Shown here: one piece after another, positions 30,435 through 52,810 of the stretch
Position numbering within the stretch: position 1 is the first letter of the stretch
How the letters are laid out: each line of letters opens with the position of its first letter
Origin: Thioalkalivibrio nitratireducens DSM 14787
GTDB lineage: Bacteria; Pseudomonadota; Gammaproteobacteria; Ectothiorhodospirales; Ectothiorhodospiraceae
Assembly (NCBI RefSeq): GCF_000321415.2
Contig: NC_019902.2
Coordinates: 806,001-870,000, forward strand
Length of the DNA: 64,000 bases
Direction of reading: 5' to 3'
Program-made: the position numbers and the translations under genes
The notes under the pieces: generated by a model
Told to the model about the DNA's origin: nothing
Database searches by the model: none
Seen by the model: the letters and a program-made list of their open reading frames with translations, nothing else

Positions 30435-32264
30435 CAAGTCCCAGCTATCGGTCTCGATGTCGCGGGAATCGGTCCAGTCGATGCTTTCGCGCTGGTTCAC
30501 GACGAGAACGAGCATGTTGTCGCGGCGGCTGATCTGCGGCTGGTAGATACGCTGCTTCGCTCGAAAGGCCTGTTCGTAGCGCTCGGGATGGAACTCTGTC
30601 GTCCGGTAGACCTGCGCGCTGATCTTCGGCCTCAGCGCCAGCGTCGAAATTTCCAATAGCTCTTGTCCCGCGCCGACGATTTCCAGGTTGGCCACCAACT
30701 CGGAAAGTTTTGCCTGCGGATCGATTGCGTCGTAGCTAAGATCGGCTAGTAGCTGGTTCCAGTCCGCGTCTTCGTGAAAGAGATTTTCCAACGCTTCGGG
30801 CACACCGTCTTCGGCGGTATTGGCAATGAATGTCGCGGGGCCGATGCGCAACGACGTGCGCGCAAACCGGCCGACGAACTGAAGTGTGATTCCGAGACTC
30901 TTGTGAATGCTGTGGAGGGCGGCGATCTTGAGGTTCGGAAGGTCAAATCCCTCGCCAAACATGTCCACGCAGACAATGATCCTGTGCTGGCCACCGCGAA
31001 TAGCGTCGAGAATGGCGCGTTTGCCGCGCGATCTGCTGTGAAGGAGAACGGGGTTCAGGTCGACGTGGTGGCGCGCATAGATCGTGCGGTAGATAGTTTC
31101 CGCATCTTCGATCTTTCCGGCCCGCGCCATGAGAATGTGATCGTATCCGGCGGCCAGGTCTTCACGCAGACGCGCAACCGCCGCTTCGGCGATCTTCAAA
31201 TCCGACTGCCGCTCATCCGGCTCGAACACCTCAACAAAGCGGATTGGATTAAAATAATCCTGATCCTGCGCAGCGCTCAGGGGGAAATTGTAAATGATCT
31301 TCCCTTCAATCGGTTTGCCGTCTTCACGGAAAGGCGTTGCCGTAAAGAGCAGGGTGTGCGCCGCAGTGCAGTGGTTCCGGAAGCGCTTCCACGTGGCCGC
31401 CTCGATGTGATGCGCCTCATCGAAGAAGATGTGGCTAAACAGGCTCGCGAACTCCCGCTGCGTGTCCGGGTCCGCAAGGCCGATCGAACTCATCGTGGTA
31501 ACCAAGACGTTGCAGGCCCTGATCGCATCAAAATGCGCCCGGTCCGGCCGCGACGACAGCGCTGCCACAACCGGCAATGGGATATCATCGATCACGCCGA
31601 TCTTCTTGAGCAGTCCGTATGAGAGGAATTTGTCGGCGGTTTGCTGCCGCAGGGCGTCAGTCGGAACGACGATGAGAACGCGCTCGCTCTGCGCGGCGAG
31701 CGGCGCAGCGATCATCACTTCGGTCTTGCCCGTACCCGTGGGCATGACCAGCACCGCAGGATCGGCACCGAGCGTCCAATGCGAAGCGATGGCGTGCAGC
31801 GCCCCGATCTGGGGAAGTCTCAGGCCGTCCTGTGCCGGCTGTCCGTCGAGGGCGGGCAGTGCGCGCTTGTACCGGATACCTGAGAGCCAGCCACGGTAAA
31901 CTTCATCCCGGATATGTGCGAAATCCGCGAGTAGGGAAGGCGGCTGGCGAAAGCGCGCCGATTCCAGAACGAGCTTCGTGCCGTCGGTTGCGCCGCTCTG
32001 CGCCCGAACGCTGCCGGTAATCAGAAGATCGTAGGTATCGCGAAAAGCGGCAAATTCGATGACGTGTTGGCTCCCGTCCTCGCCAGTCGCAAGAACACGG
32101 CGGCAGTTTGCGCCGCGCGACCGGAAGGGCGCGACTGTTGCGTCGATCACCTTCTCCGGGTGAGCCAGATGCCGAACGTGAAGCCCATTGATCTTGAAAT
32201 CGATATCGTACCGGGCCGGCAAGGACACATGCGTGATGGCCGGAAGGATTGCCGCGTCCAGCAT
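30435..32264 (-). pseudogene. Superfamily 2 helicase, 5' part (interrupted by IS66)
   Basis: About 604 codons before the insertion. Start at ATG 32264 (MLDAAILPAITHVSLPARYD). Motif I VMPTGTGKTEV, motif II FFDEAHH, motif III LFTATPF, motif VI QFVGRFARTS. It lies next to a restriction-enzyme remnant, so a defence role is plausible. Full-length protein would be about 1,100 residues with the nuclease-like part at 26550-28016. Broken in this strain. Confidence 0.85.
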
Positions 32265-32346
32265 GGTCAGCCCCCGATATTCGGCGGGGTACGTACCGCA
32301 AGAGGAACGCACCGCCGGCGGTTGGCGAAACAGGCAAGGTCTACAG

Positions 32347-32590
32347 TCATGACCGCGCCGCCTCCGCCGCAATGTGCCCGGCCAGCTCCGTCACGAAGGT
32401 GCGCAGCCCGGTCATGCCATTTAGCTCGACGTACGCGCCATCAGCGGAAGCCGTACGGGCTGACGCAATGATCGAGGCTGCGGAGTAGAGCTGCTCCTGC
32501 ATCAGCCGCTGGCAGAGAATGTTGTAGCGCTCCGGATAGGAGGCGCCCTGAAACTCGGAGAACACCGGAAAACGCGGCGAACGGTCTAGA
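32347..32590 (-). pseudogene. C-terminal remnant of a PaeR7I/XhoI-type restriction endonuclease
   Basis: About 80 codons: [40 protein letters not shown] and [20 protein letters not shown], which follow the C terminus of PaeR7I-family enzymes as I recall it. The catalytic part is missing. It joins abruptly to a YceI fragment at about 32590. Confidence 0.55.
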
Positions 32591-32687
32591 ACAGCGCGGA
32601 CTTGGCGTTGTTCAGGGTCCAGTCTGCGGACGCCGCGCTGGCGGCCAGTATTGACACGAGTGCAACGGCGGGTTTCTTGCTCAACAT
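32586..32687 (-). pseudogene. N-terminal fragment of a YceI-like periplasmic protein
   Basis: 33 codons from ATG 32687 with GGAGG upstream: a signal peptide ([20 protein letters not shown]) and [13 protein letters not shown], the typical YceI mature start, then a stop created at the junction with the restriction-enzyme remnant. Confidence 0.65.
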
Positions 32688-32690
32688 CGG

Positions 32691-33190
32691 GTTCCTCCAT
32701 TCCTATATTATTTTGTTTTGATTCCGGGTACACACGCCCATAAGGCGGGCCGGTGATCGGTTTGCGAAGACTCAAGCGCCCAAGTGTGCACGGACAACTC
32801 CTGATCCGGATCGGCAGTTGAGCCTCTTTGTCAACCATCCGGTCCGTATGGCTAAGGTACGAGGCGGGAAGAACTTGCGTCAACCGAAAGCGAAGTGAAC
32901 GCGATGTCAACGGAAGCGGTGGAGCCGCTGACGGCCGGCTCAGGGGGGGGCACCAAGGCGGGTAGCACGGGTAACGGACCTCGTGGGTGAAGCTGCGGAA
33001 AGCGGGTGCGGCTGGGGCCAGACCGTTCGCGACCCTGAACGGTCACTCCAACCAGGTCTGCAAGCGTCGGGAAGTCCTCTGAAAGCCGCCGTTGGACCAA
33101 CGTCTTTCTGGACCCATGTGCCAAAGAGGCGCTGTATTACCGTTGCAATCTGGAACACCGTGCTCGCGCTCTGCTTGCCGCAGATCAGAT
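32691..33190. other. Stretch without a recognisable gene
   Basis: No protein with family-like composition on either strand. 32690-32730 is AT-rich and is probably the old yceI promoter. Confidence 0.4.
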
Positions 33191-34348
33191 TCATGTAGCC
33201 GAATGCAAATGCGCGGGGCTCCGCAGAATGGCAGTGACCAGGGCGACCTGAGAATCGAACCCCGTTTTTCGGAAGACCGACTTGAGACGATCTCTTGCGG
33301 TAGAAATCTGGATCCTAAGCTCCGCGGCGGCTTGGGCCAGAGATCCGGTTCGTGTCAAAGCCTCGGCCAACCGTGCCTCGCCAAGGCTCAGACTGAATAG
33401 GCTTTGAATCATGGGTACAGAAAAAGACCCCGGTGGTCGGAGCGGTGTCAGGATGCCCGCCGTCACTGCTTCCGTGAAACTATGTGCCAAGGCCACGTCG
33501 CCCCGCCATGGAAGCAGAGCCAACGCAAGATCTTCACGTTGATCGGGATTTGTGAAACGTGCAGAAGAGCCCTCCCAAGCATGCGGCCGGTCTTTGCGGT
33601 TTCTTACAATGAGGGCTGTATCCAGCCAACTCTGTAGCTGCCGGTTTCTCGTGCTTAATCGCTGATTGCGCATAACGAGTTGTTCCTGGCGTGACAGCAG
33701 GCCTTGTGCCGCGGGGTTCTGGAAAACCACACGCCCATCGGCGTCGAACAGGAGCAAGCCTGGCGCCGCCTCTCCCAACAGGGTCTCATTGATTGTTGCA
33801 TGCAACTGCTCTCGGCGGAGGCGATCCGCGAGCTTGAGAGCCCTCACCCAGTGGGGCACCAGTGCCTGCGCGCGCTGTTGCTCGCGGAGCGTGAAGGCCG
33901 GGGCGTCGTGAGCCCGCTGGAAGCCGATCATTACGCTGGAGTCCCCCACACGAAGCAAAGGACCACCGAGGACATGACGTTTGTCCTGGGACTTCATGTA
34001 CTCTTGGTAGAAGCGTGTCCGTTGCAACTGCGAGAACGGAAGCTCCTGATCGAGAATGACCATTTTCCCTGGCGGAAGCGCCTCCAGGACCGGGACGATG
34101 GGATCTTCATGAATGAAATCCAGGCGATAGGCTTCCTGAAAGGCGGGATCGAATCCTGTGCTCATCGACTGAAGAACCGACCCCCAATGCTTCCCGTAGA
34201 CCCGCAGCAACGCTGAGTCCGCATGGACGTACGCACGCACGGGCTCGATTGCCTTTGGCCAAAGAGATGAATCGAGGACGCCATCGTAGATGGCCTCGAT
34301 AACGTCACTGAGCCGCTTCGGCTCGCTGGATGGCCGTGTGATTCCCAT
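33191..34348 (-). CDS. LuxR-type transcriptional regulator (copy 1)
   Basis: 385 residues. An N-terminal sensor region of about 300 residues with a PAS-like piece (APGLLLFDADGRVVFQNPAAQ), then a C-terminal helix-turn-helix (LSLGEARLAEALTRTGSLAQ, STARDRLKSVFRKTGFDSQ). No autoinducer-domain motifs, so ligand unknown. Same architecture as 38889-40094. Divergent from the hydrolase gene; GCTAG-6-CTAGC lies in the shared 75-base gap. Confidence 0.82.
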   Translation of the reverse strand: MGITRPSSEPKRLSDVIEAIYDGVLDSSLWPKAIEPVRAYVHADSALLRVYGKHWGSVLQSMSTGFDPAFQEAYRLDFIHEDPIVPVLEALPPGKMVILDQELPFSQLQRTRFYQEYMKSQDKRHVLGGPLLRVGDSSVMIGFQRAHDAPAFTLREQQRAQALVPHWVRALKLADRLRREQLHATINETLLGEAAPGLLLFDADGRVVFQNPAAQGLLSRQEQLVMRNQRLSTRNRQLQSWLDTALIVRNRKDRPHAWEGSSARFTNPDQREDLALALLPWRGDVALAHSFTEAVTAGILTPLRPPGSFSVPMIQSLFSLSLGEARLAEALTRTGSLAQAAAELRIQISTARDRLKSVFRKTGFDSQVALVTAILRSPAHLHSAT

Positions 34349-34423
34349 CGGAATGCGCCAGGTGGGTGCTAGTATCTTCTAGCGCAACTCCGAGACCCTG
34401 TCGATAGAAAAGGGCATTCGTGC

Positions 34424-35279
34424 ATGCAGACGTGTTCACTAGTTACCATGCCGGATGGACGAAATGTTCGTGTGCGGCAGTTGGGCCCTGATCAAGGCTC
34501 GCCAGTGGTGCATCTCCACGGGATTCCGAGCGCGTGCGTCGAGTTCGCGCATCACGAAGCCTTGTTGACCCATCTCAACGTTCGGCTCATCTCCATCGAG
34601 CGCCCCGGGTATGGGGCGTCGGATCCCAAGAACTTCGAATCGGTGGCCGCTTGGGTAGAGGATCTCGAACACGCTGCGAAAGCGCTTGGATCGGTTCAGC
34701 CTCCTTGGGTTTTCTGGGGGTGGAGTCTTCGCACTCGCCGGAGCTGCCGCGCTACCGACTCATGTAGACAGGGTTGTGGTGGTCGGATGTCCGGCTCCGT
34801 TCACGGGGCCGGAATTTCTCGACGGCATGGCCGTGCAAAACCAGGAAATTTGGATGCTCGGGCGTGCAGGGTATGAGGTCTTGGCCGAAGCGCTTGCGCC
34901 AATAGCCGCGGACCCGAGCGCGCTCGCTGAACAACTCCTCGAGAGCTTGCCGACCGCGGATGTGGCCGTCTTCGCTGATCCAGCAGCCCGCACAGATTTC
35001 TCCAGCGCGCTCATTGAAGGATTGTGCCAGGGCGTTGGGGGCACCGCTCGAGACCTCGCCCTCATCGCCGCGCCTTGGGGATTCGACTTGTCTCAAGTTA
35101 CGCAGCCAGTGGACATCTGGCACGGAGATGCAGATCGCAACGTCCCCGTGAACCACGGTGTGCGGCTGTCCGAAGCGTTGCCGAGAGCTCGAGCCCACGT
35201 TTGGTCGGGGCGAGGCCATTACGAGGTTTATGCGTCCACATCCTTCGAGCAAGTCTTTGGCTCGCTCAACACGATTTGA
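34424..35279 (+). pseudogene. Alpha/beta hydrolase with one frameshift
   Basis: First frame (34424 to about 34680): HLHGIPSACVEF (oxyanion HG) and IERPGYGASDP. Second frame (about 34683 to 35279): LLGFSGGGVFALAGA (nucleophile Ser in GFSGG), DIWHGDADRNVP (acid) and SGRGHYEVY (His). All three catalytic parts exist, so a single indel near 34680 breaks the gene, or it is a sequencing error. Confidence 0.8.
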
Positions 35280-35387
35280 CCCCGCTTCGGGTTGAAGCGA
35301 TGCGATCACGTCTTGCGCGTGGTGGTTGATCTGTTTCGGGAAAGGATGCTGCTCCGCCCCAGTTTTTTCCGATTGCTGAATTCAGAT

Positions 35388-35432
35388 ACCCCCGTTTGGG
35401 GGTTTCGCCCATTTTGGACCTCGCTTTACATA
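35388..35432 (+). promoter_or_regulatory. Palindrome plus TACATA box (element A)
   Basis: ACCCCCGTTTGGGGGT (35388-35403) and TACATA (35427-35432). The palindrome centre is about 43 bases before the expected start site, the position of class II LuxR-type activator sites. The stretch in between (TTTCGCCC.TTTTGG..CTCG) is shared with element C at 40398. Confidence 0.6.
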
Positions 35433-35479
35433 GAGTCATCGCAGCGACTCAATCCGGTCACAACGATACCGGGGTTCTG

Positions 35480-35548
35480 ATGTGGCAGGGCTATCCTGGG
35501 ATCTCTCAGTGGGTAGCAGTACGGATACGTGCATTCGGATTTGATTAA
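35480..35548 (+). CDS. Possible 22-residue leader peptide
   Basis: ATG 35480 opens MWQGYPGISQWVAVRIRAFG followed by FD and a stop, in the long leader downstream of element A, with GGGG 5 bases before it. Short and without homologues that I know; may be chance. Confidence 0.25.
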   Translation: MWQGYPGISQWVAVRIRAFGFD

Positions 35549-35636
35549 CCTGAATATGAAGACGCCACAATAGGGCAGTTGAGGTCCTGTTGCTGGGCCA
35601 ACCGATTGAAAAAATCGAAATGAGGTCAGTGGAAAT

Positions 35637-35843
35637 ATGATAAATAAGACGACCCGACGACGAGTCCCTGCCGCAACCGCGTTAGCGGGTCTATTGCTGA
35701 TGACAGCAGTCGCTGCTGCTGAACACCAACCCGTCGGTGCCCTAGAGTTCGAGGAACGCGTTCTGGGTGGCGATGCCACCGCCCACTGGCAGCAAGCCGC
35801 AGACTTGCGTCTCGCTAATCCAACGTGTTTGAGGGGCTACTAA
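35637..35843 (+). CDS. Small exported protein of unknown function
   Basis: 68 residues. Signal peptide: basic TTRRRVP, hydrophobic AATALAGLLLMTAVAAAEH. The remaining 40 residues match nothing that I know; the protein may be the stump of a longer gene. It lies about 200 bases downstream of element A. Bases 35844-36096 hold nothing clear. Confidence 0.5.
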   Translation: MINKTTRRRVPAATALAGLLLMTAVAAAEHQPVGALEFEERVLGGDATAHWQQAADLRLANPTCLRGY

Positions 35844-36096
35844 ACCGGCTATTGGTAAACCCACTTTGCAATGCCTTTCGCCTACGTATCTGAGAGCGGG
35901 GAGTGGCAGTTCCGACAGCCGAATAAGTAGCGCCACCGATCTATGGACTCAACCGCGCTGGGGCTCTCCGAAGAAGTAAACAGTACTAAGGCGGCTTTCG
36001 AAAGTCACTACGTTCCCTACGCCACCGCATCCCGCTGTTAGTGGAACGCCATTTAGCTTAGCAACTGTCGCGTTACGAGGAGGCCAGAGAAGAAAA

Positions 36097-36468
36097 ATGA
36101 GACAGAGAACGAATAGAACCAGAGGACTTGGACTCCTGGGAATTGGCGTTGCGTTTTTCATCACTTTGATGTCTAGATCCGCGGCCGCCGGCGGTGTTTT
36201 CATCTGGTGCGAGTCCGGCAGCGCGACTCAGTCGGTGGTCTATTTTACCGGAGTGTACGAAGGTCGTAGTCTTATCGATGTTCCCAATATACCGACAAGC
36301 TTTGAGCAGTGGCTCTTAGAGGTATACGGATTCGAACGACCGGTCTTGAGTTATTGTTCGTGGGAGTCGACACGTTTTGATGCGGAAATGCAACTCAACG
36401 CGCGGTCTAGAGAACAGCGTCAACGAGGACTAAGGGTGGATTTGACGAACTGGGCACCAAGACGTTGA
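36097..36468 (+). CDS. Small exported protein of unknown function
   Basis: 123 residues. N-terminal signal (RGLGLLGIGVAFFITLMSRS, AAAGG). Two Cys in the mature part (FIWCES and YCSWES) could form a disulfide. C-terminal end is basic (RSREQRQRGLRVD). A GAGGAGG lies 14 bases upstream of the start. GC is lower than in flanking regions, a sign of transfer. Confidence 0.55.
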   Translation: MRQRTNRTRGLGLLGIGVAFFITLMSRSAAAGGVFIWCESGSATQSVVYFTGVYEGRSLIDVPNIPTSFEQWLLEVYGFERPVLSYCSWESTRFDAEMQLNARSREQRQRGLRVDLTNWAPRR

Positions 36469-36499
36469 CGGCGGGTGTTTTTGGTGGTGCATGGAATTG

Positions 36500-36820
36500 A
36501 GGGAAGAGTGTGTGGTAAAGCCGAGCGCGGATATCTGCGGTGTGCGCTGGGCTTCCGGCGCAGCGTGATCGAGGCACTTATCGCGCGCAGGAAGGTAGAC
36601 GGACTGATGGGCCGCAACCGGGTAAAGGGCACGGCAGGGGACGCGATGCATGGGATTCTGTGCGCGGCCGGTCAGAACCTGCGCCTGCTGCTGCGAGCGA
36701 TCGCAGCTTTTTTGCGCCTCGATATACCGACGCCCCTTCCGTGGTTCCGATCGCTCTATTGGTCCCTTCTAAACCTGCGGCCCGGCGGAAGCCCTGAGCG
36801 ATTACGGCATGCAATCTGAA
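36500..36820 (+). pseudogene. Transposase C-terminal remnant (IS5-like)
   Basis: DGLMGRNRVKGTAGDAMHGI and LCAAGQNLRLLLRAIAAFL follow the conserved C-terminal block of IS5/IS1182-type transposases (RN.LKG..GDA.HA.L.AAG.N). Only about 90 codons remain. Confidence 0.7.
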
Positions 36821-36884
36821 CTGCTTTCTTCTCAGGAGACGATATCCGTCAAGACCGACCACTTCACCTGCCGCGTGTGTTGGA

Positions 36885-36924
36885 CAAGGTGAGCACGGAC
36901 CGTTCACGAACCGTGCTCACCTTG
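36885..36924. terminator. Perfect 14-bp hairpin
   Basis: CAAGGTGAGCACGG (36885-36898) and CCGTGCTCACCTTG (36911-36924) are exact complements with a 12-base loop. On the plus strand it is followed by TTGGGGGTTTT. A bidirectional terminator for the convergent genes on both sides is the simplest reading. Confidence 0.65.
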
Positions 36925-36976
36925 TTGGGGGTTTTGCTCCTAGATTTTCGCGAATGTATACATAGTTATTTCACAC

Positions 36977-37288
36977 CTATTGTATCGCTTGACCTCTGCC
37001 GCGGCTCGCACTGCCGCTTCCGCTACCTGTTGCCCTGTTGATTCCATCGCCAAGCGCCTCCAATCCGCAGTTAACACAGTCTCGAACTGTCCGGCCGACC
37101 TCACCGGCACGGCCGTATGGACTGCTACCAGTCCAGACATCCCTCGCTCCTTGGTTGACGCGATTTTGGATCTGATAACCAGCGTTATCCACGGTGCATC
37201 CCATAGTTCCCGCAGGACACCTTTGTTGTGCAAGAGCAGGGGCTGCAGTTAGTGACAGCATCGCAACAACAGTTAATGATCGAATCAT
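36977..37288 (-). CDS. Small exported Cys-containing protein
   Basis: 103 residues; AAGGAG upstream of the ATG. Signal peptide MIRSLTVVAMLSLTAAPALA then QQRCPAGTMGC. Four Cys in two pairs (RCPAGTMGCT; RDCVNCG) suggest disulfides. Gly/Ser-rich C terminus. No family recognised. Element B lies 168 bases upstream. Confidence 0.6.
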   Translation of the reverse strand: MIRSLTVVAMLSLTAAPALAQQRCPAGTMGCTVDNAGYQIQNRVNQGARDVWTGSSPYGRAGEVGRTVRDCVNCGLEALGDGINRATGSGSGSASRGRGQAIQ

Positions 37289-37455
37289 GTGGCGCTCTCC
37301 TTTACAACACCGGGTTCACAAATAGCCCCAGCACAATTCAAGAATGAAGAACGGTCTGTTTCTTCCAACTTGCCTGTGTGGGAGGCTCGGCGCAGCAGCG
37401 CAACAAGTCACGTGCCGCCCTGATCATGTTTTGGCACTGTTCTCGGGCTGGTACA

Positions 37456-37471
37456 ACCCCCAAACGGGGGC
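37456..37471 (-). promoter_or_regulatory. Palindrome element B
   Basis: On the minus strand: GCCCCCGTTTGGGGGT, matching elements A and C in 15 of 16 positions. The TACATA box is less clear here (AACATG at about the expected distance). It precedes the exported protein gene at 36977-37288. Confidence 0.45.
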
Positions 37472-37596
37472 TCCTTCGACCAGCCCATGACCATTGGGGC
37501 ACAAGTGGCTCTCGGCCCTCGTGGAAAAAAGAGATGGTCGGGTTGGGCTGGACAACCGATCGGGAAAGATAAGTGAGGGTCATCGGTCATCGGATA

Positions 37597-38441
37597 TCAG
37601 GCTGCTTCCCTCAGCCCATTGGTCTGGAAGTAAACCTCATCCGGGGTCCTGCGGTCGAGTCCCTGATGGGTCCGGCGTTGGTTGTAGAAGTGGAAGTACC
37701 GGTCCAGCCCCTGCCGGGCCTCAGCCGGGTTGGCGTAGGCATGCAGGTATACCTCCTCATACTTGACCGAGCGCCACAGCCGCTCATTGAAGACGTTGTC
37801 CATCCAGCGGCCTTTTCCGTCCATGCTGATGGTTACGCCCGCGTCCCGGAGCATGCCGGTGAAGGCTTCACTGGTGAACTGGCTGCCCTGATCGGTGTTG
37901 AAGATCTCGGGGGTGCCGTGACGCCACAGGGCCTCCTCCAGGGCCTCGAACAGAAGTCCGCGGTCAAGGTGTTCGACAGGCGCCAGGCCAGCACCTTGCG
38001 CGAATGCCAGTCCATGATCGCTACCAGGTACAGGAAGCCCCGGGCCATCGGCAAATAGGTCACGTCGGCGGCCCAGACCTGGTGGGACCGGTCGATGCGA
38101 AGGCCTCGCAGCCGGTACGGGTAGATCCGGTGACTCTGGTCCGGGATCGTGGTTCTGGGGCGGCGGTACAGCGCATGCAGCCCCATGCGCCGCATCAGCC
38201 GGCGTACCCGATCCCGGCCCACGGAATGCCCGTCCCGCTGCAACTGGTCGCACAGGCTGCGCGAGCCCATCCAGGGATGCTCGAGGTGCAGCTCATCGAG
38301 CCGGCGCATCAGCGCGAGGTCCTCCGCCGGTGCCGGCACCGGCCGATAGTAGACGCTCGACCGCGACAGCCCCAGCAGCGCGCACTGGCGCGTGATGCTG
38401 AGCCGGTGTTCCGGCTCGATCATCGCCTTGCGCCCGGCCAC
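37597..38441 (-). pseudogene. IS3 transposase OrfB, frameshifted
   Basis: DDE core is spread over two frames: AADVTYLPMARGFLYLVAIM and ending LSNTLTADF in the first, then LEEALWRHGTPEIFNTDQGS, FNERLWRSVKYEEVYLHAY and a normal C terminus in the second. The frame break is near 37945. Inactive unless rescued. Confidence 0.88.
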
Positions 38442-38722
38442 CGAGCCTTGCCGGACGCCCGCTCCAAAAAATCCACTTCCAGGGTCAACTGCCCGATCTT
38501 CGCGTGGAGCTCCTTGAGGGTCTTTTCGGCTGCGGCATCACCGGCCCCGCGGTCGAAGGCCGCAGCCATGTTCTCCGTCGCCTGCTGGCGCCACTGGGTG
38601 ATCTGGTTGGGGTGCACGTCGAACTGCTCGGCGAGCTCGGTCAGGGTCTTGTCACCACGCAGGGCGGCCAAGGGGACCTTGGCCTTGAACTGCGGGGAAT
38701 GGTTGCATCGGGGTCGTCTCAT
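38420..38722 (-). CDS. IS3 transposase OrfA
   Basis: 100 residues. Helix-turn-helix FKAKVPLAALRGDKTLTELA and EQFDVHPNQITQWRQQ, then a leucine-rich coiled coil. Overlaps OrfB as is usual for IS3, where OrfAB forms by programmed frameshifting. Confidence 0.88.
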   Translation of the reverse strand: MRRPRCNHSPQFKAKVPLAALRGDKTLTELAEQFDVHPNQITQWRQQATENMAAAFDRGAGDAAAEKTLKELHAKIGQLTLEVDFLERASGKARWPGARR

Positions 38723-38888
38723 GGTCTTCTCCAGGCGCGGCTGCGCCAAAGATACCGACGGCCCCATCACTTATCGACCTGTCCAAAAAACCCAGACCGG
38801 CTCTCCTGCCTCTGGTTAGGTGCGCTACAACCGGGGGCCGAACCTGCCGGAGGAGACCGCCCCAACCGATCTTCCTGGGACGCCTCAA

Positions 38889-40094
38889 TCACACCCTCTG
38901 TGGCGAACCACCATCCTTCTCTTGCGAGCGGCCACCACCCGTAAACGCACCGATGCCGAGCGAACCCAACAGCCCAACAAGTTCGGCCTGCCGCCGCGTG
39001 CTGGTCTTGTGCAGCACACGCTTGAGATAGCCGCGAGCTGTCTCGTTGGTGATACCCAGAGCCTGAGCAGCCTCGGCGACGGTGCGTCCGTGGGTGATCT
39101 GCAAGGCTAGGTCCGCCTCGCGGGCCGTGAGCCCGAACAGTTCGTGCAGCATCGCCGAATCAACAGTCACGTCGCGCTGGGCGGGCTGAAGAGTGATGGC
39201 GAGTCGCGGTGCACGAAGATCCGGAAACAGGGTTGCGGGAGAGGGCAGGGGGTGCACCGTGGCTCGGCATGACGGTCTCGTCGCGATGGCACCCGGCGTG
39301 TCTGTTTCTGGGCGGCGCAGCGCGAAATGTGGCTGGATATTCGCGAAAGGATCTTCGGCAGCACGTGCCGCCTGAGCGAGCCAGTTGCGCCAAGAAGCCA
39401 ACTGTTGGCGAACCCTTGGCTGTAGGCAGCCGTCGTTCTCCATGAGTGGAACCTCCCGTGTGTTCAGGCACTTCGCGGCCGCCCGGTTGCGCCAAACGAT
39501 CCGCCCGTCCGGAGCACACAGGAAGACCGGATCCGACTTCGTCTCCAATAGGCCCAGTGCTGTGGTGGCGACCCCATGTTGCTGCAACACGGCGCGGTAC
39601 AGCATCAGGCCGCGACGCATGTGTGGCAGTAGAAGCTTGGCCGCCCGAAGCTGTTCCGGTGACGCCGGACCATCACTCGGGTGCCGCTGAATGCTGCAAT
39701 GGCAGGTTAAGTCGACCTCGTCCAGCAGTTGCAGGCTCAGGTAGTAGCGGAAGCGGTAACCCGCCAACCACTCGAAATACTCGCTTTTCCAAAGGCGCCG
39801 TTCGGTCATGTGCTGCGCGTCGTGGTTGATGTGCATCTCAGGATGTTTGATCGCATACACCACGCGGGGATCACGACGGATAAACTCCGCATCGTATTCA
39901 CGCAGCATTGGCTCGGGGATGTCGAGGACTTCGCAAAAAGCAATCTCCCTCGACGGCTTGTGGATCCCCAGATAGGCGCCCGCCGAGCTGCCGGTCAACT
40001 CCAGCACGGGTCGCAAGACACGCTGCCAGTCGCCGACGACGGAGGCCTGATAGATGTCGTCGATCACCGTGTTGAGAGCGTTCTGGCGCAACAC
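38889..40094 (-). CDS. LuxR-type transcriptional regulator (copy 2)
   Basis: 401 residues from GTG 40094, which has GGAGG 9 bases upstream. N-terminal sensor region with a PAS-like piece (SDPVFLCAPDGRIVWRNRAA), C-terminal LuxR helix-turn-helix: FGLTAREADLALQITHGRTV and AEAAQALGITNETARGYLKR. Paralogue of 33191-34348 in layout. It faces away from element C and the ankyrin-protease gene 500 bases upstream. Either regulator may bind elements A-C. Confidence 0.87.
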   Translation of the reverse strand: MLRQNALNTVIDDIYQASVVGDWQRVLRPVLELTGSSAGAYLGIHKPSREIAFCEVLDIPEPMLREYDAEFIRRDPRVVYAIKHPEMHINHDAQHMTERRLWKSEYFEWLAGYRFRYYLSLQLLDEVDLTCHCSIQRHPSDGPASPEQLRAAKLLLPHMRRGLMLYRAVLQQHGVATTALGLLETKSDPVFLCAPDGRIVWRNRAAAKCLNTREVPLMENDGCLQPRVRQQLASWRNWLAQAARAAEDPFANIQPHFALRRPETDTPGAIATRPSCRATVHPLPSPATLFPDLRAPRLAITLQPAQRDVTVDSAMLHELFGLTAREADLALQITHGRTVAEAAQALGITNETARGYLKRVLHKTSTRRQAELVGLLGSLGIGAFTGGGRSQEKDGGSPQRV

Positions 40095-40397
40095 GAGTCT
40101 TCCTCCCGTCGTGCATGTCACCACCAAAAAAGCCATGCCGATTGCTGGGTAGCGCGACTCGCAGATCGCTGAAGATCCTTTCGGTCGTGTGCCCCGCTGT
40201 TGGCTTAAATATAGCAGAAGTTCCCCACCGGCGATACCGGCGAAGTGGTGTGCAACGCGGCGTCCCGCATCGGACGCGCATGCCTATGCCTTTCGAAGGG
40301 ACAGCGAAAAGGATTTCGCCCGTGTGCCCACTGGTCCGAAGGACGCCCTGGGCCTGGGCGCCAGTGCGACGAGCGTCCTCGCCCTCTGGATCCCGAT

Positions 40398-40442
40398 ACC
40401 CCCATTTGGGGGTTTCGCCCTTTTTGGCTCTCGTTCTACATA
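40398..40442 (+). promoter_or_regulatory. Palindrome plus TACATA box (element C)
   Basis: ACCCCCATTTGGGGGT (40398-40413) and TACATA (40437-40442). The start-to-start distance is 39 bases, identical to element A, and the intervening sequence is similar. It precedes the ankyrin-protease gene (start 40593). Confidence 0.6.
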
Positions 40443-40592
40443 AAGGCTTGGAGCCACGTAAACGGATTACCGCGAATCTTGGACGAGGATGGGTTACGGC
40501 GGCCCCGCGTACGATGAGAAGTGTTCCTAGTGAAAAGGTCGGGAATTGGTGCTATGGAAGATGCATTCATCTTTTGTGGCGGGAGGGGGGCG

Positions 40593-43500
40593 ATGCAGAA
40601 CACGACAGGTGTAGAGGGAAACAAGAACGACCGTCCTGAGCCAATGCGGGTGCGATCTCGCTGCAACCATCTAACGCCGCCTAGGCCTGTGCTGTTACAC
40701 AGATTGGCTACGGTCGTTCTGGCGTTTTTGGTGGGGTCATACTCTTTCGGATGCGCGCAGCTAATGGTGGCCTCCGGCTTTTCTGAAGATACCCTTCGGT
40801 TATCCCTAGCAAGTGGGTTGGATCCGAACTCTAACACGTCGTCGGGCAATTCTCTTCTCAACGTAGGGATTGAACGGCAAAGCGTAGCGGTAGTCCGACT
40901 GCTCTTGGACAAAGGGGCCGACCCTAACCTCCGAGATCAAAGTGGTGCGCTCCCGCTGTACAATGCGAGCGCCACACTAAATCCCGACATATTAGAGGTC
41001 TTGTTCGAACACGGCGCTCGACTCGATGCGTTCGAGGAAGAAGAATTCCACACATTCTTATGCAGGGTCTTTGGGGAGCCAAACGAAGTTCGCTGGGATA
41101 TCAGTGACTTTCAAGACATGTATCTGCCGCTCGACCTAGAATGCAGTGGACTACCCCTGATCTTGGCGGCAGTCGTCAGCAACAATGATCCGCAGGTCTT
41201 AATTCAGTCTGGATTCGACGTAAACCGCTCGGCTGCCAATGGCAGGACTCCCCTAGAGGTTTCTGTAGTTAACCACCTAGATGCGGAGGATACCCTTTTA
41301 GTTCTGGGGGCAGATCCAAGAAAGGTATCAAGCACTGGCGTCCCGATTGCTAAACTCGCGTTGAACGAAGGGACTTCGGAGTCTGTTAGAGCCCTGCGAG
41401 CGAGTATTGCTGGTCAAGGGATTAATTCAAAAGACTACGTTGAAGCATTTTGTCATCGCCTCGTGACGGGCGTTCCCAACGGTGAACTTCTTTCCGAGTT
41501 CGCCAAAGCCGCCAAAAATCTCCCTCGGAACTGCCCAGGTACGACGAACACGATTCTGGAGGTCGCAGCTAAGGCGCGCTCAGCAGAGGCATTGAACATC
41601 GTCCAGCAATATCGGCCGAACGATAAACTGGAACGTTGGGACGCGATTGAATGGCTGGCGGAAAGCGAAGACCCGACCGCACACGCACTGCTGGGTCGCA
41701 CCTTGACTCCTCGTGCGCAACGGTTGATGCTCTGCGAGGCATCCAGTCTTTCTTCTAGAGCCGTTGCTTGGTTGGCACTGCGGACCGGTTCTAGGCCGCC
41801 ACTATCATGCGAGGATGGACGATCGGTGCTGTCACTTCTGGTTCATGACGAAGAGAGCGTGGCCGATGTTCTGCGACGCGGCGCCAACCCCAATGGCTCG
41901 GCACGTGATCCGGTATCTCCATTGGAAAACGCTGTAGCGAATTCCAACGGGGCAGTCGTAGTCCTTCTCTTAGACAACGGTGCGAAAGGCCCTGTCTCCC
42001 GCAAGACGTTGGAAAGCGCCACCCGAATGGATTCTTCGGTTCAACGCAGGCTATGGAGCATTTCACCCGAAGCCGAGCAGCTTGCCGTTCTCTGCAAACG
42101 GGTAGGCGAGCCATTCTCAGAGAGCCACCAAGCCATGTACGCCAATCCGTCTATCTTCTCTCGGCCATGCGCCGATGGGAAGACCCCCTTGGAATTGGCG
42201 ATTCATAACTCTCATCCTTTGGACCGACTGGCAGCCCGGGAACCACAGCAATGGCCCACCGATATGTTTCAGCGCAACGAGGAATTGGGCCAGCGCTTGA
42301 TTCTCACGGCAGCTCGAAAGGGAAACTTGGATTTGGTCGCCGAATTAGCGGCAATGGGGGCTCGCCTAACGAGGCTAAACTATGACGAGTTTGCGACCGC
42401 GTTTCCGAAGAAGTTGACAGACGACCAGTATTCAATGCTACGGAAAGCAGGGTTGAGTGAATCTATCCCATACATACATAAGGTGTCGTCGGAATGTAAC
42501 GAACGCGATGAAAAATCCCTTACGCTTCTCTGGAATGACTTCCAGCGTGATACCGATGTTCGCGACCTAGTTAATGCGAAGCTTGCGGCCTATGATCACT
42601 GCGTTCAATCGTTATACACTAGGGCGGTTGCGAGCCCACATTACCCCTATTCGCGCAGCACGTCGCGCCCCTATTTGTCCAAGGAATCCCTTCTGCCTGC
42701 GAAGTATCTTACTGTGCGCGCGATGACGAAGCTGGCTCCTGCGTCGGTTTTGGATCAAGATATTTCGGGTGCTGTGTCTCTCATTCAACAGGCGAGCAAG
42801 TCGATTGAGGAAAGTGTGGCGCAGTACCAGAAAGCCGACCGAGCGTGGATTAGTGAGCAGATTGCGAAGGCGGAAGAGGAACGCAGGAGAGCGGAGAGAT
42901 CTGCGTTAATCGGAACTGTACTGATGGGAGCCGTGGCGGCATACGGGGTGCGGGAAGTCAATCGATTTGACCCCGTGCAGGGGCGGCAGTTATTCACCCA
43001 ATGGTCGTCAGAAATCTTAACTTCGCATATTAGTCGAATTGATGATGTGCAGAAAGAGCATTCGTCCCAAGTTGCGAGGCTGAACTCGCTTACTCAAGGG
43101 AAGAAGGGTGTGGACGGAAGATTTGACGACGACGGCGTCAGGATTATCGTGCCGCGCATCGGATCATGGCATCCTTTTGGTTCGTTGGAGTCGCAAAATT
43201 CCTTGCAGCATTTTAGTCATTTATTTCGAATTACTTCTCAGTATAAGGATGGTACAGAAGGGTTTTGCACGGCCGCTGCAATTCGCGACGGACGGATTCT
43301 CACCGCACAACACTGTCTTCATGACCGAGAGAAAGGTTGGGCTCAGTCGATTCGGCTGTCGTGGGAATACCTCGGTATCGAGGGAATTGTTTCGCCCGAC
43401 GGAAGGTCTTATACGGCTGTCTATGGGCGTGAATCGGAAATCATAACAGGATCCTTTGAGGTTGAGACCGCTCAGAACATGTGGACAGCGGATTGGGGAA

Positions 43501-43925
43501 ATGACTGGGCGATCTTGACGTATAAAGGTAGCGATATCCCGTGGAGAATCAAATACGGGCTGACCTTCGCTTCGGAAGGCGCCCTTCGGGATCTGGGACG
43601 TGCAGACGGTAGTGTGAGGGTAGTGCGGGCTGGCTATGCCGCCCATGTGAATGAAGGCAGTTTTATTACAATGGATTGGGGATGCCGTGGGACCGTCACC
43701 GGATCAATTGTGTACACAAGGTGTCGGGGTTGGAAGGGTGATTCGGGATCTCCGGTGGTAATTGCTAGTGGTCCAGAGAAAGGCAACATCGCCGGTGTCC
43801 ATGCGTTCGGTAGGGGCGAGGCCGGGGCAAGATTTACCAACGAGGGCGGCGGACCGTCGGCAAGACACATTCAGCGAGAACTTGACTCCGGGAAGACTCG
43901 TAAATTTAGCATAGCCTCGCGGTAG
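40593..43925 (+). CDS. Ankyrin-repeat lipoprotein with C-terminal trypsin-like protease
   Basis: About 1,110 residues. I start at ATG 40593 because GGGAGG lies just before it; ATGs at 40554 and 40644 are possible. A hydrophobic stretch ends in a lipobox (VGSYSFGC), so an outer-membrane or surface lipoprotein is likely. The first 600 residues hold ankyrin-like repeats (VVRLLLDKGADPNLRDQSGA, VLFEHGARLDAF). A coiled segment (about 780-830) precedes the S1 protease domain with the triad His in ILTAQHC, Asp in NDWAIL and Ser in GDSGSPV. Lower GC than the surroundings. I know of no standard family with this fusion. Confidence 0.85.
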   Translation: MQNTTGVEGNKNDRPEPMRVRSRCNHLTPPRPVLLHRLATVVLAFLVGSYSFGCAQLMVASGFSEDTLRLSLASGLDPNSNTSSGNSLLNVGIERQSVAVVRLLLDKGADPNLRDQSGALPLYNASATLNPDILEVLFEHGARLDAFEEEEFHTFLCRVFGEPNEVRWDISDFQDMYLPLDLECSGLPLILAAVVSNNDPQVLIQSGFDVNRSAANGRTPLEVSVVNHLDAEDTLLVLGADPRKVSSTGVPIAKLALNEGTSESVRALRASIAGQGINSKDYVEAFCHRLVTGVPNGELLSEFAKAAKNLPRNCPGTTNTILEVAAKARSAEALNIVQQYRPNDKLERWDAIEWLAESEDPTAHALLGRTLTPRAQRLMLCEASSLSSRAVAWLALRTGSRPPLSCEDGRSVLSLLVHDEESVADVLRRGANPNGSARDPVSPLENAVANSNGAVVVLLLDNGAKGPVSRKTLESATRMDSSVQRRLWSISPEAEQLAVLCKRVGEPFSESHQAMYANPSIFSRPCADGKTPLELAIHNSHPLDRLAAREPQQWPTDMFQRNEELGQRLILTAARKGNLDLVAELAAMGARLTRLNYDEFATAFPKKLTDDQYSMLRKAGLSESIPYIHKVSSECNERDEKSLTLLWNDFQRDTDVRDLVNAKLAAYDHCVQSLYTRAVASPHYPYSRSTSRPYLSKESLLPAKYLTVRAMTKLAPASVLDQDISGAVSLIQQASKSIEESVAQYQKADRAWISEQIAKAEEERRRAERSALIGTVLMGAVAAYGVREVNRFDPVQGRQLFTQWSSEILTSHISRIDDVQKEHSSQVARLNSLTQGKKGVDGRFDDDGVRIIVPRIGSWHPFGSLESQNSLQHFSHLFRITSQYKDGTEGFCTAAAIRDGRILTAQHCLHDREKGWAQSIRLSWEYLGIEGIVSPDGRSYTAVYGRESEIITGSFEVETAQNMWTADWGNDWAILTYKGSDIPWRIKYGLTFASEGALRDLGRADGSVRVVRAGYAAHVNEGSFITMDWGCRGTVTGSIVYTRCRGWKGDSGSPVVIASGPEKGNIAGVHAFGRGEAGARFTNEGGGPSARHIQRELDSGKTRKFSIASR

Positions 43926-44217
43926 GGGCGATTTACGCAATAGGGCGTGATCCAGGAACGTTGGCTTGGGGAGTAAGATTGTGTGTCTGTTGACCGGGTC
44001 GCGAAGGGGCCGGATCAGGGCGAAAGAGCGGGGCGTCCGGGGTAGTATGTGGGCGTATACTGGCGGCGGACAGGGATGGCGGAACGGTTGTGTCTTTTGT
44101 GAAGTTCGGCGTTCTGGCGCCTTAGGGGGTACAGGATTCCGGTTCCGCGGCGCGTAGTGGAAGCATCGCACGTTGCAGGAGGATTAAGGGTGCATGATTG
44201 TTTTAGATCGGGAGCAG

Positions 44218-45137
44218 GTGTGGATGTCCTGTCGGATCGCACGCTACTGAGTGTGGGGAAAGTGATTTGGTGCTGAGGCATTGAGCGCCACGAGGCGCTT
44301 TCTGACCGTGCGACGGTGCGAGACCGTCGCGACTCGGCTGTCGCAACAGCCGAGGACAAGCTGAGGGCAGCCCGAACTGGGGAACGCCAGTAAGGGTGGC
44401 AAGCAGCCCTGACAAAGCCGGGACGCGGCAGCATCGTCAGATGCCGTGGGTCCGGCGAGCAAACGAGGAAGGTGTAACGAAAGTGAACCCGTGGCGTAAA
44501 ACCTCTCAAGAGAGAACCAACAGCTCCAACCTGACGGATATGGGCTGGGTTGCAGCGCGCAGCCACGACTGTGTCGTGGTGAACTCCCTCGTCGGTCAAG
44601 ATGTCGCCGGCCGGGAGGCTGCCGTGAAAGCCTGCGGCGTAGCGGCAGCGAAGCTGCGGGGGTATAGCGGGGCACCTCACCTTGTGAACGGCGGAAAGTG
44701 AACGTGGGAACCCTACAGGCAGTCCAGACCGTCGTCCGCGACGAAGGGGAAGCGCGTTGCCCGCTGACGCTGTCTGTAGGGGGCGGAGGGGCCGTAGTAG
44801 TCCGAGCGCGGGAAAGCCGCGTACATGGCGAAGGGCTCCAGTGTGTTCGCAGCGATTTGACATCGCAAGGAGACCGCTGGTGAATACCGGCGCACCAGAC
44901 CTTGAGTGGGAAACCGCACGGGAACGGGTACTTGCGATGCAGACCAAGCTGCACCGATGGGCAACGGCCGACCCTGGCCGCTGCGTACCGCGGGGCCAGG
45001 ATACTTACACCCTGGGCGCTGTCGGCATGAACACATGGAGAGCCGGATGCGGTGAGAGTCGCAGGTCCGGTTCGGAAGGCGGGCCGCGGAAACCCAGCCG
45101 GCGAAAGCCGGCCAGGGCGTTGCGGCCCGAGCCTTAC
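44218..45137 (+). ncRNA. Group II intron with deleted maturase domain
   Basis: 5' end GTGTGGATGTCC fits GUGYG. Domain III-type block CCGTAGTAGTCCGAG and GTACATGGCGAAGGG at 44790-44835. Domain V is an exactly 34-base hairpin at 45040-45073 with AGCC/GGTT base and GAGA loop. A GC-rich stem (45079-45133) fits domain VI. The ends are estimates. Between domains III and V only the first 40 codons of the reverse transcriptase remain. Confidence 0.82.
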
Positions 45138-45146
45138 ACCCGGTGA
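44880..45146 (+). pseudogene. Intron-encoded reverse transcriptase/maturase, N-terminal stump
   Basis: GTG start with AAGGAG upstream. NTGAPDLEWETARERVLAMQ and TKLHRWATADPGR match the first 40 residues of intron maturases, then the frame runs into the ribozyme's 3' domains. The reverse transcriptase, maturase and endonuclease domains are all missing. Confidence 0.8.
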
Positions 45147-45602
45147 ATCGCGAACGGAGGGTACGGGGTGTTCTGAATGACCTCAATTATATTGGAACCG
45201 GTCGTTCGCGCCGAAACGGTCTGGTGACGGGTTAGGGCCGACTACTGCCACTACCGGCCATGGAGATCCCAAGCCGACCAGAAGCGGGCGGTCACTGGGG
45301 ACGGGCGAGGCACTACCGTCGGGACACGCTGGACCGTCCGGCTTCGCTCGACGTCCAGCGCCTTCCGTACGCCGGCATTCCGGGGATCTGCCGCTCTCTC
45401 GAGTTCGAGTGTCCGATCCGGGAACTCGAAGGGTCGTTGCGGCGTATTCTGCGCGCAACTGCATCGGATCCGTTGGCGGCTGGACACGGGGCGGGGGAGC
45501 TGGGCTCCCTGTCTGGTGGGTCCGCGGTTGGCAACTGCAGGCAGGGGTGACAGGGCCAACCACCCGTGATGTCATTCCCGATTCGCGGGGGTAATGTTCA
45601 CT
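45138..45602. other. Stretch without a recognisable gene
   Basis: No family-like frame on either strand. Contains the inverted pair CGCTGGAC / GTCCAGCG at about 45329-45361. 43926-44217, left of the intron, is likewise empty. Confidence 0.4.
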
Positions 45603-46190
45603 AGATCTTCGGAACGAGTCCATCGGCCAACGCCGTGCGGTACGCCCGAAGGGCCGGGATCAGGCTCACTGCGAAGGCCGCGGCCAGGAACCAGCGACAG
45701 CAGCAGAGTTTCGTGGGTGCCCGGTGGGGCGATCGCTAGGTGAATGCCGTAGTGCGCCTGCACGATCGGCTGCGCCACGTACAGCGAGAGGTACAGCAGC
45801 GCCATCCCCATGGCGATCCCGGCGACCGCCAGGAATAGGGTTTCGCATGCGAGCAGCAGGGAGATCTGGCGCGGGCGGGCCCCCACGGAGCGCAGGATCG
45901 CCATTTCCCGCCGCCGCTCGTTCAGGCCGGCGAGCATCACCGCCAGCATGCCGATCAGGCCCACGATGACCACGAATGTGGAGACCAGCAGCAGCGCATG
46001 CTCGGCAACACCCATCAGGGACCAGAGTTCGTGCAGTGCGACGCCAGGCAGGATGGGCAGCAGCGGTTCCGCCCGGAAGTTGTTGACGTAGCTCTGCACC
46101 TGGAAGGTGGCTGCACGGGAATCGAGCCTGACCAGCACGGCGGTGATCGAATCCGGGGTCAGGCCCATAGGCAGGAATGTACATAGTAGT
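45603..46190 (-). pseudogene. ABC transporter permease (FtsX/MacB fold), C-terminal remnant
   Basis: The minus-strand frame has LTPDSITAVLVRLDSRAATF, LPGVALHELWSLMGVAEHAL, NERRREMAILRSVGARPRQI and membrane helices of the FtsX domain; after a frameshift near 45690 it ends RAYRTALADGLVPKI. The N-terminal half is missing. Usually such permeases pair with a LolD-like ATPase, which is not found here. Confidence 0.78.
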
Positions 46191-52714: not shown

Positions 52715-52810
52715 TGGCGGAAGGGCGCGGGAGTCGAACCCACCCGGGACCGCCTGACGGCCCCAACCGGTTTTGAAGACCGGCCGCACCACCGGGCACG
52801 AAGCCCTTCC
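52715..52810 (-). tRNA. selC: tRNA-Sec (anticodon UCA)
   Basis: Minus strand, 96 bases including the CCA. Eight-base acceptor stem GGAAGGGC/GCCCTTCC, long variable arm, anticodon loop CTTCAAA with TCA, T loop GGTTCGACTCC and encoded GCCA. The extended acceptor and variable arm are specific to selenocysteine tRNA. Between phnD and selB. Confidence 0.96.

Follow-up and report, generated by a model that had tools for sequence, protein, structure and literature searches.

We describe a palindromic box, ACCCCC-RTTT-GGGGGT, that precedes exported-protein genes in a 64,000-nucleotide stretch of the Thioalkalivibrio nitratireducens DSM 14787 genome (NC_019902.2, positions 806,001 to 870,000; hereafter the window), together with two regulators of one family, R1 and R2, encoded beside its three copies A, B and C. 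On the sequence evidence laid out below, we put at roughly 0.7 the probability that the box is the operator of R2, and that an R2 dimer at about -42.5 acts as a class II activator at A and C, and probably at B, on the genes for exported proteins that follow. What is established here is where the sites lie, how rare they are, that they pair with one type of regulator, how far they stand from a -10-like hexamer, and that genes for exported proteins come after them; the small regulatory circuit guessed at in a first-pass annotation of this DNA is probably right. An apparently uncharacterised regulator family gains a probable operator, a correspondence between helix and box, and a list of target genes; the arrangement points to a compact sensory switch acting on envelope proteins and recurring, with different cargo, in distantly related proteobacteria.

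Occurrence and promoter spacing of the box

The first-pass annotation counted three copies of ACCCCC, four bases and GGGGGT, which is accurate for A and C, while B departs from it at one position (Table 1). The core CCCCCRTTTGGGGGT has three sites in the 4,002,350-bp genome, every one inside this block, and the reversed pattern, used as a control, has none. A palindrome scattered over the genome regardless of promoters would, by the annotation's own standard, have refuted its reading, and the result does not refute it, since the exact core is confined to this block; with one mismatch, CCCCCRTTTGGGGG gains two additional genome sites, both under open reading frames (ORFs) of more than 300 amino acids and neither with the hexamer described below. 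Overlap with an ORF is weak evidence alone, since C and several other boxes are likewise covered by ORFs, some shorter and some longer. The looser form CCCCC-N4-GGGGG has 13 sites in the genome, and the 16-mer with two mismatches is found six times in the window against a shuffle mean of 4.55, that is, without enrichment, so the signal resides in the near-exact form, whose occurrence is far from chance. Elsewhere, the exact core CCCCCRTTTGGGGG is present in 3/57 other genomes, at one site each, and in 0/29 genomes of the same genus. Block A had no match in plasmids, and a search of genome contigs with the box and its 3' flank gave one 19-base pattern match, in a metagenome-assembled genome of the Bdellovibrionaceae, from a collection that may omit the window's own genome.

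Around A and C the likeness extends to a 60-bp direct repeat (50/60 identical, 83%) that ends just past the hexamer TACATA. A genome search with block A (E ≤ 10) returned A, C and two 16-base fragments, one of them B, and no third copy. In both blocks TACATA starts exactly 39 bases past the box start, as the first-pass annotation had observed together with the similarity of the intervening sequence. A repeat of this kind, flanking a segment that contains an IS3 element, could also be duplicated or mobile DNA, for example att-like repeats around 5 kb, with no regulatory role. The box recurs, however, in other genomes with different flanks and genes and at nearly equal spacing to a -10-like hexamer, and we regard this explanation as highly improbable.

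The boxes are also inverted repeats rich in G+C, A comes some 110 bp after the stop codon of the hydrolase, and a related pattern ending in TTTCGC is present in 48 viral stretches, all of which would fit hairpins that serve as transcription terminators or RNA elements. Such a role is scarcely credible: a terminator scan listed none of A, B and C, the sole Rfam match within 32000-46000 is located elsewhere, just three T directly follow the box in A and C, C stands between divergent genes, and no T run lies behind the boxes of three further genomes discussed below (G050, G377 and G036).

If the hexamer begins at -12, the centre of the box falls at -42.5 (hexamer at offset 38 from the box start) or -43.5 (offset 39), in agreement with the position near -43 that the annotation had derived from the letters alone. 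By sequence, this class II layout is found at offset 38 or 39 in A, C, G050, two sites of G377 and two of G036, and at 37 in a Cupriavidus plasmid, though not in B. Over the seven sites at 38 or 39 (B and a duplicate in G036 being omitted), 38 gives the highest mean -10 score of the 81 offsets compared; this value was reached by 0/2000 shuffles at that offset and by 1/2000 at any offset. A sigma-70 scan had no listing at A, B or C.

Pairing of the box with a recognition helix

The R2 recognition helix, ITNETARGYLK, resembles those of the G050 and G377 regulators, and most other homologues differ. The G050 regulator (helix VTYETARGYLK) is followed by the box ACCCCCAATTGGGGGGT 75 nt behind its gene, and the G377 regulator (VTYETTRSCLK) by ACCCCCCGTTTGAGGGGT 55 nt behind, each with exported-protein genes downstream. 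The G036 regulator (LTYETARWYLK) was chosen for examination by its helix, and its box CCCCCATTTGGGAGG was discovered afterwards, 291 nt behind the gene, with GACACT at offset 38 and genes for a membrane protein and a lipoprotein downstream. On a plasmid of Cupriavidus sp. P-10, a regulator with the helix GTARGYLK has the box CTCCCAAATGGGAG 294 nt past its stop codon, followed by TACTAT at offset 37 and, further on, the gene of an exported protein. A divergent gene for a BASS-type transporter, named by eye, is common to G036, G050 and G377.

Two counts describe this pairing. The pattern CCCCC-N4-GGGGG, with at most one mismatch and within 800 nt, accompanies 4/4 helix-class regulators vs 3/44 others, the pattern having 24 sites in total over the 351 kb of sequence covered. 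With a uniform box rule, within 500 nt and over 64 regulators, a box lies near 5/5 regulators with the helix (TAR[GW]YLK or TTRSCLK) and 4/59 without it (Fisher p=1.7e-5), a value that is descriptive because helix class and box rule alike were set once all five pairs were known. Fifteen held-out homologues, taken from the plasmid matches listed, were searched with a palindrome rule fixed in advance and without reference to their helices; ten earlier plasmid loci are counted among the 59. The held-out set yielded two palindromes vs 0.18 expected, one of them that of Cupriavidus sp. P-10, with its TARGYLK helix. Only one held-out locus (L174) had a hexamer at the exact offset, the Cupriavidus TACTAT being one base off.

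Further boxes lie beyond the neighbourhood of the regulators. A scan of 16 genomes for the core with one mismatch turned up boxes on two other contigs of G036: in L157 the box precedes a lipoprotein, and in L143 it duplicates the main site and is followed by a gene that shares 45% identity, over 116 residues, with the second of the genes downstream of the G050 box. On another contig of G377 a second box, with GACAAT at offset 38, precedes an exported protein whose match to PEP-CTERM is weak (18.5 bits, cut-off 20.7). At 38 or 39 the -10 score reaches 1.5 or more, a threshold chosen after GACACT (1.8) was known, in 8/12 examined sites of the four carrier genomes, the G036 duplicate included, vs 1/16 in other genomes; the examined sites are 12/14 and 16/19, respectively. 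The lone exception, in G166, has TATCCT at offset 38 and stands beside two regulators of its own, before an exported protein. With these regulators and a relative of the hydrolase divergent from R1 close by, the G166 site may belong to another relative of the system. That hydrolase relative, in one reading frame beside two R1/R2-type regulators, is 34% and 37% identical to the two parts of the split gene in the window.

It is conceivable that the box belongs to another DNA-binding protein, either R1 or an unlinked regulator, and that its pairing with R2 is incidental. R1 adjoins A, the G166 regulators have other helices yet stand near a box-like site with a hexamer at 38 and an exported protein behind it, 4/59 regulators without the helix also have a box nearby, and full-length R2 shows no particular closeness to the other carriers. 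Set against this are the 5/5 with the helix, subject to the reservation already made on the late definition of the class, the presence of a betaproteobacterial plasmid among the helix-and-box carriers, and the R1 helix RIQISTARDRLKSVFRK, which is found in 0/47 other regulators of the 800-nt comparison. On balance we consider assignment to another protein unlikely.

Several observations weigh against R2 as the activator acting at the box, beyond the late choice of helix class and box rule. An earlier label for the helix, ET[AT]R, would include a held-out, box-less regulator from Microvirga (L177, YETARNQLK) and exclude that of Cupriavidus. R2 is just 24-26% identical to the G050, G036 and G377 regulators, which are themselves mutually 47% identical, and in full length it scores higher with the regulators of G067 and G216, which have no adjacent box. 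Two of the seven sites in the spacing analysis, the second ones of G377 and G036, were accepted partly for what follows them. B is without a hexamer at 38 or 39, its best one being at 43; C scores -1.0 at 38, with TACATA at 39, and the Cupriavidus hexamer is at 37. The -10 scores are modest and depend on the weights used.

Regulators, their relatives and the genes of the block

The first-pass annotation placed two LuxR-type regulators in this 7-kb block. R1 does lie within 7 kb of C, but outside the interval from A to C that had been marked out, and the GerE match of R2 is below the cut-off (Table 1). R1 has no GerE match and was recognised through its homology to R2 instead (27% identity over 383 columns). 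Among homologues, GerE scores 28.3 bits in Cupriavidus (L179) and 27.9 in L104, both above the cut-off of 23.5, and 16.0 in G166; the G050, G377 and G036 regulators have no match at E ≤ 0.05. The Pfam autoinducer-binding domain is absent from R1 and R2 at E ≤ 0.01 and from six homologues at E ≤ 0.05, which excludes R1 and R2 as receptors of the LuxR type responsive to acyl-homoserine lactones (AHLs). Neither R1 nor R2 showed a receiver domain. PAS_8 in the G036 homologue reaches 21.2 bits, just below the cut-off of 21.8, and no PAS domain was found in R1, R2 or five other homologues tested. Among structures in the PDB, a three-row family profile matched 8u3b (NarL) alone at E ≤ 0.01, over the DNA-binding part (E=0.0075). 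A structure prediction for R2, with only R1 as companion sequence, has a mean pLDDT (predicted local distance difference test) of 34, the helix-turn-helix region alone reaching 60-74.

We propose that R2 is a one-component regulator of the LuxR type in which no autoinducer domain can be recognised. Its N-terminal two thirds, which may hold a PAS fold, would presumably sense the signal; an R2 dimer would bind ACCCCC-RTTT-GGGGGT at about -42.5, compensate for the missing -35 element and recruit RNA polymerase to weak promoters. At A and C, and probably at B, the outcome would be activation, rather than repression, of the exported-protein genes that follow. The LuxR-controlled regulon put forward in the annotation is supported for R2 by the helix-box pairing in four other genomes, but not for R1, which may bind other sites or act together with R2.

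Relatives of R2 are sparse. A search of its own genome (E ≤ 0.001) recovers R1 and R2 only, 5/369 genomes of the class, its own included, have R2 homologues at E ≤ 1e-16, and the three-row family profile finds homologues in 34/369 (E ≤ 1e-20). In the orders of G377 (11 genomes) and G050 (one genome) the queries alone were recovered. A phage or viral origin of R2 was considered and rejected: no relative was found in phages at E ≤ 1e-5, nor in viral contigs searched with the G377 regulator.

R2 could represent a family, widespread and so far unstudied, of one-component regulators of the LuxR type. Many of these would sit beside an operator palindrome whose four-base centre, similar to RWTT, is conserved while its arms change along with the recognition helix, and next to a gene for a surface or exported protein; regulator, box and envelope gene would form a modular code that travels together. 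Palindromes centred on RWTT number eight beside regulators, those of R2 and G050 included, vs 0.6 expected (shuffle maximum 3), for a spacer class picked after some of these palindromes were known, and perfect palindromes of any kind lie behind regulators at 14/48 loci vs 6.5 expected from shuffles. By a fixed criterion, 4/16 site-strands across the family have the -10 hexamer at the predicted offset, tied with four offsets (mean 1.7). At eight sites identified by eye, the better strand scores at least 2 at offset 38 in L104, L109, L118, L127 and L133, and not in L119, L124 and L135. Because the family-wide distance of the hexamer did not stand out, we hold the modular code as tentative, with the odds somewhat against it.

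Individual loci of the family differ in their arms. In L115 and L127 (G350 and G246), regulators of about 600 amino acids share the helix ITKHTARTQLKNIFQK, with CCTC-AAAT-GGGG and ATACCTC-AAAT-GAGGTAT nearby, a pattern that suggests a second helix-and-box pair within the family. In L104 (G214), positions 2799-2820 read ACACCTCCC-ACTT-GGGAGGTGT behind a regulator with the helix TAQWYCK, followed by TAAACT at offset 38 and then an exported protein; the right half-site GGGAGGTGT is identical to that of the G036 box. In L135, on a plasmid of Mesorhizobium ciceri, two tandem R2-type regulators lie near YadA-like and autotransporter genes, a further case of such regulators close to surface proteins.

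Table 1. Features of the block; positions are counted from the first nucleotide of the window.
Feature	Position	Strand	Remarks
R1, regulator of the same family as R2, 385 amino acids	33191-34348	-	homology to R2; recognition helix RIQISTARDRLKSVFRK
Alpha/beta hydrolase, divergent from R1	34424-35279	+	split over two reading frames; both parts match the hydrolase beside the G166 regulators
Promoter block A, 60-bp repeat	35376-35435	+	box 35388-35403, TACATA 35427-35432
Box A	35388-35403	+	ACCCCCGTTTGGGGGT, exact match to 16-mer
Small exported protein behind A, 68 amino acids	35637-35843	+	Sec-type signal peptide by eye, hydropathy
Second exported protein behind A, 123 amino acids	36097-36468	+	signal peptide; hydropathy; no Pfam family
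Exported protein behind B, 103 amino acids	36977-37288	-	Sec-type signal peptide by eye, hydropathy
Box B	37456-37471	-	GCCCCCGTTTGGGGGT, one mismatch among 12 fixed bases
IS3-family insertion sequence between R2 and B	37549-38785	-	ends approximate, by eye
R2, LuxR-type regulator, 415 amino acids	38889-40136	-	GerE 21.0 bits, cut-off 23.5; recognition helix GITNETARGYLKRVLHKT (ETARGYLK)
Promoter block C, 60-bp repeat	40386-40445	+	box 40398-40413, TACATA 40437-40442; divergent from R2
Box C	40398-40413	+	ACCCCCATTTGGGGGT, exact match to 16-mer
Ankyrin-repeat and trypsin-domain protein behind C, probably exported	40593-43925	+	Ank_2 7e-19, Trypsin 1e-6

That each copy of the box precedes an exported-protein gene, as the annotation had stated, is borne out by signal peptides recognised by eye behind A and B and by a strongly hydrophobic N-terminal segment in the protein behind C, whose start codon is uncertain (40593 or earlier). 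The protein behind B has no similarity to the proteins behind boxes other than A, B and C at E ≤ 1e-3. Within the insertion sequence, a transposase part at 37833-38441 matches NF033516 transpos_IS3 (E=7e-43, 147 bits, cut-off 160), and no target duplication was recognised at the ends as read by eye. With the IS3 element taken out, some 180 nt separate the R2 stop codon from box B, which shares the strand of R2 and stands upstream of its exported gene, and this order of regulator, box and exported gene is that of G050, G377, G036 and Cupriavidus.

Behind the exported gene of box B there is a strong inverted repeat (36884-36925) with 20-nt arms, 90% complementary, and a 2-nt loop. Elsewhere in the window, Rfam reports a group II catalytic intron at 45038-45137 (51.8 bits, gathering 40), and a selenocysteine tRNA gene lies on the minus strand at 52715-52810.

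Comparison with known systems

The first-pass annotation knew of no described system of this kind. LuxR at the lux box (centred at -42.5), PimM and CfaR work in a similar way, however, so that the kind is not altogether undescribed. Five box strings were not found in the papers searched, and neither was the name Thioalkalivibrio nitratireducens together with LuxR. NarL, the structural match of the family (8u3b), is like R1 and R2 in its DNA-binding domain alone; it is a response regulator, and no receiver was found in R1 or R2. NarL is controlled by phosphorylation. The lux box differs from the present box in sequence and in length (20 bp against 16 bp), and R1 and R2 showed no autoinducer-binding domain. 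The likeness to LuxR lies in the LuxR-type DNA-binding domain and in the placing of the site, the lux box being an inverted repeat centred at -42.5 (PMC3376562).

PimM and CfaR, PAS-LuxR regulators of Streptomyces, are the nearest in working. We do not claim PAS-LuxR membership for the present family, because the C and G runs stand in reversed order, the regulators are about twice as long as PimM, and the targets are exported proteins; PAS, moreover, is detected weakly and in one tested protein (G036). The PimM consensus is CTVGGGAWWTCCCBAG, so that the G and C runs are in the reverse order of those in the present boxes, CCC-RWTT-GGG (PMC4380410). PimM is an activator, and the targets are polyene antibiotic genes for PimM and phytotoxin genes for CfaR, as against exported proteins here (PMC4380410). 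The CfaR site is immediately upstream of the -35 box, and the PimM site typically overlaps it (PMC4380410). The two share with the present system a C-terminal helix-turn-helix of the LuxR type and a palindromic site of 16 bp in which G and C runs flank four A/T-rich central bases (PMC4380410).

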